The notes below the pieces were generated by a model. That model ran no database searches, was not told the origin of the DNA, and worked only from the letters and a program-made list of their open reading frames with translations. From assembly GCA_902593165.1 (NCBI GenBank), contig CACJHI010000002.1:1-64000 (forward strand): a stretch of DNA of 64,000 bases, written 5' to 3'. Positions 31,500 through 33,131 of this stretch are shown piece by piece. This stretch comes from an uncultured Bacteroidota bacterium (GTDB lineage Bacteria > Bacteroidota > Bacteroidia > Flavobacteriales > Flavobacteriaceae). How positions within the stretch are numbered: the first letter of the stretch is position 1; each line of letters begins with the position of its first letter. The position numbers and the translations under genes are program-made.

Positions 31500-31508
31500 C
31501 GCATATTT

Positions 31509-33131
31509 ATGTTATCTGTATCTAATTTATCGCTTCAATTTGGAAAGAGAATACTCTTTGATGAAGTAAATATAACTTTTTCTCCTGGAAATTGTTATGG
31601 AATTATTGGAGCTAATGGAGCAGGTAAATCTACTTTTCTTAAAATTTTATCTAAAGATTTAGAGCCTAATACTGGTTCTGTTTTTCTTGAACCAGGAAAG
31701 AGGTTATCTGTTCTTGAACAGAACCATAATAGGTATGATGAAAACACTGTAATAGAGACTGTAATTCTTGGAAATCAAAAACTATTTGAATTAAAAAGTG
31801 AGATAGATTCAATTTATGCAAAAGAAGATTTTTCAGATAAAGACGCTGATAGGGTTGGTGAGCTCCAGGCTTCATTTGAGGAAATGAATGGATGGAATGC
31901 AGACGCAGATGCAGCCTTCTTATTATCAAGTCTTGGAATCACTGAAGAATTACATCACAATAAAATGGCTGATATTGATCAAAAGGTAAAAGTTAAAGTT
32001 CTATTAGCTCAATGTTTGTTTGGAAATCCAGATGTTTTAATCATGGATGAGCCAACCAATGATCTTGACTATAATACTGTTGAATGGTTAACAAATTTTA
32101 TAAATGAATTTGAGAATACTGTTATAGTTGTATCTCACGATAGATATTTTCTCGATGCAGTTTGTACGCATACCTCAGATATAGATTTTAGTAAAATCAA
32201 TCATTTTTCAGGTAACTACTCTTTTTGGCAACAATCAAGTGAATTAGCTTCCAAGCAAAAACTACAACAAAATAAGAAAGCTGAGGAAAAGAAAAAGGAA
32301 TTACAAGAATTTATTTCAAGGTTCTCTGCAAATGTTGCTAAATCTAAACAGGCAACTGCTAGAAAAAAGATGATTCAAAAACTTAACATCGAAGAAATTA
32401 AGCCATCTAGTAGAAGGTATCCTGCAATAATCTTTGAACAAGAAAGAGAAGCAGGTGATCAAATTCTTGAACTAAAATCACTTTCATATGAGAAGGATGG
32501 AGAAGTATATTTTAAAGATATCAGTCTCAATCTAAATAAGGGTGAGAAGGTTCTTATAATATCAAAGAATTCAAGATCTATTAATCTTTTCTATGATTGT
32601 ATTTCTGGAAACTTAGAACAAACATCTGGATCTTACAGCTGGGGAGTTACTACAAGTTCAGGGTATTTGCCGATGGATAATCACTCATTTTTTGATAAAA
32701 ATATTTCCCTTGTTGATTGGCTTAGACAGTGGACTAATACTGAGGAGGAAAGGGAAGAGTTGTTTATAAGAAGTTTCCTTGGTAGAATGCTTTTTAGTGG
32801 AGATGAGGCACTTAAATCATGCAATGTACTTTCAGGAGGTGAAAAGGTTAGGTGTATGCTCTCTAAGATCATGATGGGTAAACCTAATGTTCTTTTAATT
32901 GATGAACCTACTAATCACCTAGACCTTGAATCAATTACTGCATTTAATAATTCACTATCTAATTTTAAGGGTACTGTACTTTTAAGTACCAATGATAGGG
33001 CTTTTGCTGAATCTGTTGCTAATCGTATTATTGAGATAACTCCAAATGGAATAATAGATAGTTATCTTCCTTTTAGTGAATATATTGTTGATGAAAAAGT
33101 CTTATCTCAAAGAGAAAAACTTTATTCCTAG
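31509..33131 (+). CDS. ABC-F family ATPase with one degenerate composite ATP site
   Basis: 540 residues from ATG 31509; the ORF-track start at 31419 adds 30 residues antisense to the neighbour. Two ABC domains are joined by a basic linker (about 250-310, KKAEEKKKELQEF), the layout of ribosome-acting EttA/YbiT proteins. NBD1 has Walker A GANGAGKS near 34-41, Walker B MDEPTND and H-loop SHDRYF, but no LSGGQ (QKVKVKVLL instead). NBD2 has LSGGEKVR and IDEPTNHLD, but its Walker A is replaced (ISKNSRSINLF) and its H-loop is STNDRAF. No membrane helices. The gene ends 1 nt from the pheT stop. Confidence 0.9.
   Translation: MLSVSNLSLQFGKRILFDEVNITFSPGNCYGIIGANGAGKSTFLKILSKDLEPNTGSVFLEPGKRLSVLEQNHNRYDENTVIETVILGNQKLFELKSEIDSIYAKEDFSDKDADRVGELQASFEEMNGWNADADAAFLLSSLGITEELHHNKMADIDQKVKVKVLLAQCLFGNPDVLIMDEPTNDLDYNTVEWLTNFINEFENTVIVVSHDRYFLDAVCTHTSDIDFSKINHFSGNYSFWQQSSELASKQKLQQNKKAEEKKKELQEFISRFSANVAKSKQATARKKMIQKLNIEEIKPSSRRYPAIIFEQEREAGDQILELKSLSYEKDGEVYFKDISLNLNKGEKVLIISKNSRSINLFYDCISGNLEQTSGSYSWGVTTSSGYLPMDNHSFFDKNISLVDWLRQWTNTEEEREELFIRSFLGRMLFSGDEALKSCNVLSGGEKVRCMLSKIMMGKPNVLLIDEPTNHLDLESITAFNNSLSNFKGTVLLSTNDRAFAESVANRIIEITPNGIIDSYLPFSEYIVDEKVLSQREKLYS

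Follow-up and report, generated by a model that had tools for sequence, protein, structure and literature searches.

Lineage-wide loss of one composite ATP site in YbiT/YkpA-type ABC-F proteins, with a likely one-hydrolysis mechanism

In current descriptions, ABC-F proteins work with two ATP, and they are usually trapped by means of double EQ2 mutants. A gene in the window, which is the whole stretch of 64,000 nucleotides analyzed from an uncultured Flavobacteriaceae bacterium, raised the question of whether a member of this class could run on one ATP site. The original prediction, made from the DNA letters alone, was that this gene encodes an ABC-F protein whose missing motifs all fall in the same composite site, and that the pattern is coherent with evolution to one hydrolytic site and speaks against random decay.

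The frame at 31509-33131 (forward strand) starts with ATG, is uninterrupted, and encodes 540 amino acids with two PF00005 stretches and a PF12848 domain (aa 224-307) by Pfam. ABC-F proteins are recognized by having two ABC domains on a single soluble polypeptide, joined by a PtIM/ABC_tran_Xtn linker, and the fold agreed with this assignment: the AF2 model had an ABC-F fold (mean pLDDT 86), and its top Foldseek match was ribosome-bound E. coli YbiT (9njf), which was also the best PDB sequence match (E 3e-145). The predicted ABC-F identity was confirmed by these Pfam matches and by the phylogenetic tree, in which the protein clades with E. coli YbiT, apart from other ABC-F proteins. The assignment to YbiT is based on the tree; the YbiT model PRK15064 was the top NCBIfam family with 598 bits, which is under its curated cut-off of 762 bits. 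The cut-off of this model (NCBIfam NF011646) was missed by all YbiT proteins sampled from Bacteroidota, Bacillota, and Acidobacteriota and appears to be tuned to Pseudomonadota; proteins below it are therefore annotated under a generic name. The conserved PtIM and the predicted fold are consistent with action of the protein at the ribosomal E site. The features of the gene, all on the forward strand, are as follows.

31509..33131, forward strand: YbiT/YkpA-subfamily ABC-F protein, 540 aa (PF00005 twice, PF12848, PDB match 9njf, tree)
31608..31634, forward strand: NBD1 Walker A GANGAGKST, aa 34-42 (site 1), intact
31719..31721, forward strand: NBD1 Q-loop Gln71 (site 1), intact
31974..31988, forward strand: NBD1 signature position, IDQKV for LSGGQ/E, aa 156-160 (site 2), lost
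32046..32060, forward strand: NBD1 Walker B DEPTN, aa 180-184 (site 1), intact
32133..32141, forward strand: NBD1 H-loop SHD (SHDR, aa 209-212; site 1), intact
32178..32429, forward strand: inter-domain linker with the P-site-tRNA interaction motif, conserved (PF12848 match; entropy of the RFSAN..KSKQAT stretch)
32562..32588, forward strand: NBD2 Walker A position, SKNSRSINL, aa 352-360 (site 2), lost
32673..32675, forward strand: NBD2 Q-loop position, Met389 for Gln (site 2), lost
32829..32843, forward strand: NBD2 signature LSGGE, aa 441-445 (site 1), intact
32901..32915, forward strand: NBD2 Walker B DEPTN, aa 465-469 (site 2), kept here and repeatedly lost in relatives
32988..32996, forward strand: NBD2 H-loop position, TND with Asn495 (site 2), lost

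Site 1 was composed of the Walker A, Q-loop, Walker B, and H-loop of NBD1 and the signature of NBD2, and site 2 of the Walker A, Q-loop, Walker B, and H-loop of NBD2 and the signature of NBD1. Every lost motif falls in site 2. The motif states given in the original prediction (NBD1 with Walker A, Walker B, and the H-loop and without LSGGQ; NBD2 with LSGGE and Walker B, without Walker A, and with Asn at the H-loop) were all found as described, and the Q-loop Gln of NBD2 was identified as a further site-2 loss beyond its list. Since the losses are confined to one composite site, opposite signature included, the protein shows the motif pattern of the degenerate-site ABC proteins, a class defined by function and not by homology. 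Site 2 is not wholly erased, as the Walker B Glu is kept. E. coli YbiT (9njf, 9nlf; PRK15064) is of the same subfamily and clade, with a length of 530-540 aa, the same PtIM, and an NBD1 signature position that already reads VAPGW. However, its NBD2 Walker A, Q-loop, A-loop, Walker B, and H-loop are canonical, whereas the window protein keeps Walker B alone.

An alignment across Bacteroidota had been proposed as a check of whether the asymmetry is lineage-wide. YbiT-type proteins, which scored clearly apart from other ABC-F proteins, were found in about 87 of 297 Bacteroidota genomes searched. Essentially all of these were aligned with sequences from 12 species of the window's genus, 43 Bacillota, 30 Pseudomonadota, 30 Spirochaetota, 24 Acidobacteriota, and 80 named loci from many phyla. 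The named loci were found via a pattern including [DN]EPTNHLD, which under-reports Walker B loss among them; the other sets do not have this bias. In a few cases, two loci stand for one genome (e.g., L018 and L165), and the tree was built on dereplicated tips.

The scored site-1 residues were canonical in all 316 sequences but one, a truncated contig. For site 2, the 108 Bacteroidota sequences retained the Walker A glycines in 5, the Walker A Lys in 10, the Q-loop Gln in 7, the signature GG in none, the catalytic Glu in 91, and the H-loop His in 76. The asymmetry was lineage-wide, being found in nearly all Bacteroidota YbiT, and it extended to three further phyla. A Bacteroidota-specific feature was rejected, as erosion of the NBD1 signature is common across YbiT and NBD2 Walker A loss also occurs in Bacillota (a degenerate NBD2 P-loop in all 43 sampled), Spirochaetota, and some Acidobacteriota. 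A general ABC-F feature of Bacteroidota was likewise rejected, as each of the 60 paralogues of EttA and Uup type sampled from this phylum had two intact sites. When NBD2 Walker A was lost (219 sequences), the rest of NBD2 was affected to different degrees: the Glu remained in 171, the His in 160, and the Gln in 6, and the adenine-stacking A-loop aromatic was missing in 210 and kept in nine. When it was intact (78 sequences), the rest of NBD2 was canonical (Glu in 77 and unreadable in one, His in 78, Gln in 78, and A-loop aromatic in 77).

Two side observations came from the alignment. Pseudomonadota YbiT (L117-L129, L233-L262) carry a strikingly constant [VI]APG[WFL] at the NBD1 signature position, a replacement that resembles a new motif under conservation rather than free decay. 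Two Acidobacteriota proteins (L298 and L300) are of the degenerate type with DGPTN at NBD2 Walker B, and the Acidobacteriota genomes G836 and G810 carry a second, fully canonical YbiT (L315 and L316).

A maximum-likelihood tree was inferred from 120 dereplicated sequences with the motif columns removed and was rooted on 12 other ABC-F proteins, from which the 108 YbiT tips were separated as monophyletic (support 100/100). The 81 tips lacking NBD2 Walker A formed one clade (support 100/100), in which the NBD2 P-loop was lost, in nearly every case together with the Q-loop, and the A-loop aromatic was almost wholly absent. This clade took in almost every Bacteroidota YbiT, every Bacillota YbiT sampled, the majority of those from Spirochaetota, and a few from Acidobacteriota. 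At 12 matched ATP-contact residues across the 108 YbiT tips, parsimony gave no changes for site 1 versus at least 121 for site 2. The site-2 catalytic Glu changed at least 12 times and the H-loop His at least 14 times, all within the Walker-A-lost clade (68% of the YbiT tree length) and nowhere else in YbiT. As an evolutionary pattern, this lineage-wide and ordered loss of a single ATP site across at least four phyla is close to certain.

Two further placements were observed in the tree. The YbiT proteins of one Bacteroidota family (L002-L005, L007) branch with Bacillota and not with other Bacteroidota, which suggests horizontal transfer. Some Bacteroidota families carry a second, deep-branching YbiT type (L015, L016, L027, L031, L033) with a wholly canonical NBD2 and LPTDL or LPNDL at the NBD1 signature.

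The earliest-branching YbiT proteins (several Acidobacteriota, a Legionella-like bin, and one spirochaete) have two canonical sites, with LSGGF or LSGGY and GPNGxGKST, and Pseudomonadota, Sulfurimonas, and others have lost the NBD1 signature alone. SGG was missing at the NBD1 signature in 66 Walker-A-intact sequences, whereas it was present in only two of the 219 sequences without NBD2 Walker A, both from a single Bacillus species sampled twice. Signature loss is more widespread than Walker A loss, and the comparison suggests that signature erosion preceded P-loop loss, an order inferred for a signature that has changed repeatedly. The losses would have started with the NBD1 signature, continued with the NBD2 P-loop, Q-loop, and A-loop, and then repeatedly reached the Walker A Lys, catalytic Glu, and H-loop His.

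Neutral ratcheting could account for such an order: site 2 would have been dispensable already in the YbiT ancestor, and the remaining motifs would have been lost after the signature with no new function gained. The excess of signature loss over Walker A loss (66 versus 2) and the many later losses of Glu, Lys, and His to varied residues, as relaxed constraint predicts, favor this course. However, much of the degenerate Walker A segment has stayed constant in the window's genus, with 9 of 13 positions invariant across 13 species, and Flavobacteriaceae show a common S[KR][DN]SRA-type consensus, which suggests a structural role for the segment. We give neutral ratcheting roughly even odds; it is compatible with a one-site translation factor, as the former concerns cause and the latter mechanism.

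The AF2 models were used to compare the P-loops; they are nucleotide-free and speak to P-loop shape and not to site occupancy. NBD1 of the window protein was modeled with a 5-residue P-loop followed by a helix starting at Lys40, and NBD2 with a 2-residue loop and a helix already from Ser355. As a control, a Pseudomonas YbiT whose NBD2 Walker A is canonical was modeled by the same method with an overlapping alignment; its NBD2 loop had 6 residues and the helix started at Lys358. The comparison of models supports replacement of the NBD2 P-loop by an early-starting helix, by which the phosphate-wrapping loop would be gone. The NBD2 Walker A was also among the more variable stretches in the Walker-A-lost clade (entropy of 2.23 vs. 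0.07 for NBD1 Walker A).

A second alternative is that site 2 holds a structural, non-hydrolyzed ATP in a non-canonical pocket, making the protein a two-ATP, one-hydrolysis machine. Degenerate sites of type I exporters do hold non-hydrolyzed ATP (PMC7756269), Pseudomonadota YbiT have all NBD2 motifs and lack the NBD1 signature only, and in the 219 Walker-A-lost sequences the site-2 Walker B Asp is retained in 214, along with the Glu in the 171 given above. The Walker A Lys is retained in 69 of the 219, mostly from Bacillota and Spirochaetota, many of which keep both Lys and Thr (GxNxxAKTT). Nevertheless, Bacteroidota retain hardly any of the signature, the P-loop glycines and Lys, the Q-loop Gln, or the A-loop aromatic, the modeled NBD2 has no P-loop loop, and the constancy of Walker B may instead reflect the adjoining D-loop at the dimer interface. 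A retained structural ATP seems unlikely overall; the proteins that still have the Walker A Lys would be its most plausible holders.

The window assembly is fragmented and 75% complete, and several canonical motifs are missing from the gene, which could point to an error in NBD2 or to an early pseudogene. The same losses were present in 12 other species of the genus (81-94% identical), with the H-loop Asn in 12 of 12, and the frames were intact in 13 congeneric species. Within the genus, dN/dS was 0.040 overall and 0.044 in NBD2, a ratio that is approximate because dS was high (median 1.6) but that clearly indicates strong purifying selection. A sequencing, assembly, or frame error, for which orthologues had been named as the test, was rejected as extremely improbable, as 12 congeneric assemblies show identical states without a frame break and these states, the H-loop Asn excepted, are found throughout Flavobacteriaceae. 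Random decay or an early pseudogene was dismissed with equal firmness by the 0 versus at least 121 changes, the dN/dS of 0.04, the intact congeneric frames, and the spread over four phyla. The original claim of coherent loss is strongly supported by conservation, phylogeny, and the paralogue controls.

Regarding the locus, the ybiT start codon (forward strand) lies 4 bases from the start of a divergent gene for a TlpA-like thioredoxin-fold lipoprotein on the reverse strand (31504-31509), and each promoter therefore lies inside the other gene. This gene pair and the downstream pheT were kept at 12 of 12 congeneric loci. The degenerate YbiT was the sole PF12848 protein found in most YbiT-bearing genomes of the genus and in a same-order genome that is a single contig of 1.9 Mb and 99% complete.

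From these comparisons, the favored explanation, with a probability of about 0.82, is that the gene encodes a housekeeping ABC-F translation factor of the YbiT/YkpA type that hydrolyzes ATP at one site. As judged from sequence, a one-hydrolysis mechanism that uses site 1 alone is likely. In the established cycle, an ABC-F protein closes on two ATP molecules, occupies the E site, and departs once ATP has been hydrolyzed (PMC11282234). The window protein would enter the E site with ATP sandwiched at site 1 only, which would suffice to close the dimer, while the site-2 interface would pack without tightly bound nucleotide; a single hydrolysis at site 1 would then open the dimer and release the protein from the ribosome. 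Judging from the retained Lys, site 2 may bind nucleotide weakly in the relatives that keep this residue (69 of 219). A stricter version could as easily fail as hold: the Walker-A-lost clade would bind and hydrolyze one ATP per cycle, at site 1 only, its NBD2 P-loop would have been rebuilt as a dimer contact free of nucleotide, and alternation as in MtbEttA would be impossible.

Functional asymmetry between sites has been reported for other ABC proteins. In MtbEttA, the sites engage alternately with 30S rotation, and in one state site I is fully engaged while the Q-loop of site II is disengaged (PMC8782954); by analogy, the degenerate YbiT looks like a protein locked in a mode that uses site I only. 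In MsrD, mutation of the NBD2 Glu causes a more complete loss of resistance than that of the NBD1 Glu (PMC10314930). Both are ABC-F proteins with functionally asymmetric or alternately engaged sites on the rotating ribosome; unlike in YbiT, both sites are chemically intact. ABCE1, another soluble ribosome factor with two ABC domains, likewise has sites of unequal function; however, both are canonical, and its site II, equivalent to the eroded site of YbiT, is the essential control site (PMC6124641). The loss of site 2 in YbiT was unexpected because site II is functionally critical in ABCE1 and MsrD (PMC6124641, PMC10314930). Pdr5 and other degenerate-site exporters resemble YbiT in having one composite site altered in all motifs and the other canonical (PMC7756269). 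Pdr5 differs in being a membrane exporter whose eroded site is NBS1 (NBD1 Walker A and NBD2 signature), opposite to that of YbiT, and in having Cys for the Walker A Lys with no loss of the P-loop fold described; restoring its degenerate-site residues to canonical reportedly gives a phenotype (PMC7756269).

B. subtilis YkpA/YbiT belongs to the same subfamily by published phylogeny, and functional evidence shows that this Bacillota YbiT resolves stalls on charged motifs (PMC11381351); the motif state of Bacillota comes from our 43 sampled sequences. No description of a degenerate site in YbiT/YkpA was found in the open literature, subscription journals and preprints being outside the scope, and such a site is unmentioned in the passages found in the ABC-F diversity survey (PMC6723617) and the YkpA/YbiT paper (PMC11381351).

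The Walker-A-lost YbiT clade suggests that the ABC-F class can run on one ATP site, and a natural clade with a single intact site directly tests the role of each site. If a site-1 E-to-Q mutation alone behaved like EQ2 in these proteins, one hydrolysis event would be enough for ribosome release; EQ2 constructs in species with the degenerate YbiT would effectively be EQ1. The degenerate YbiT proteins are missed by the curated PRK15064 model. The clade drops the site that is weightier in ABCE1 and MsrD, and site roles are thus not fixed across ribosomal twin-ABC factors.
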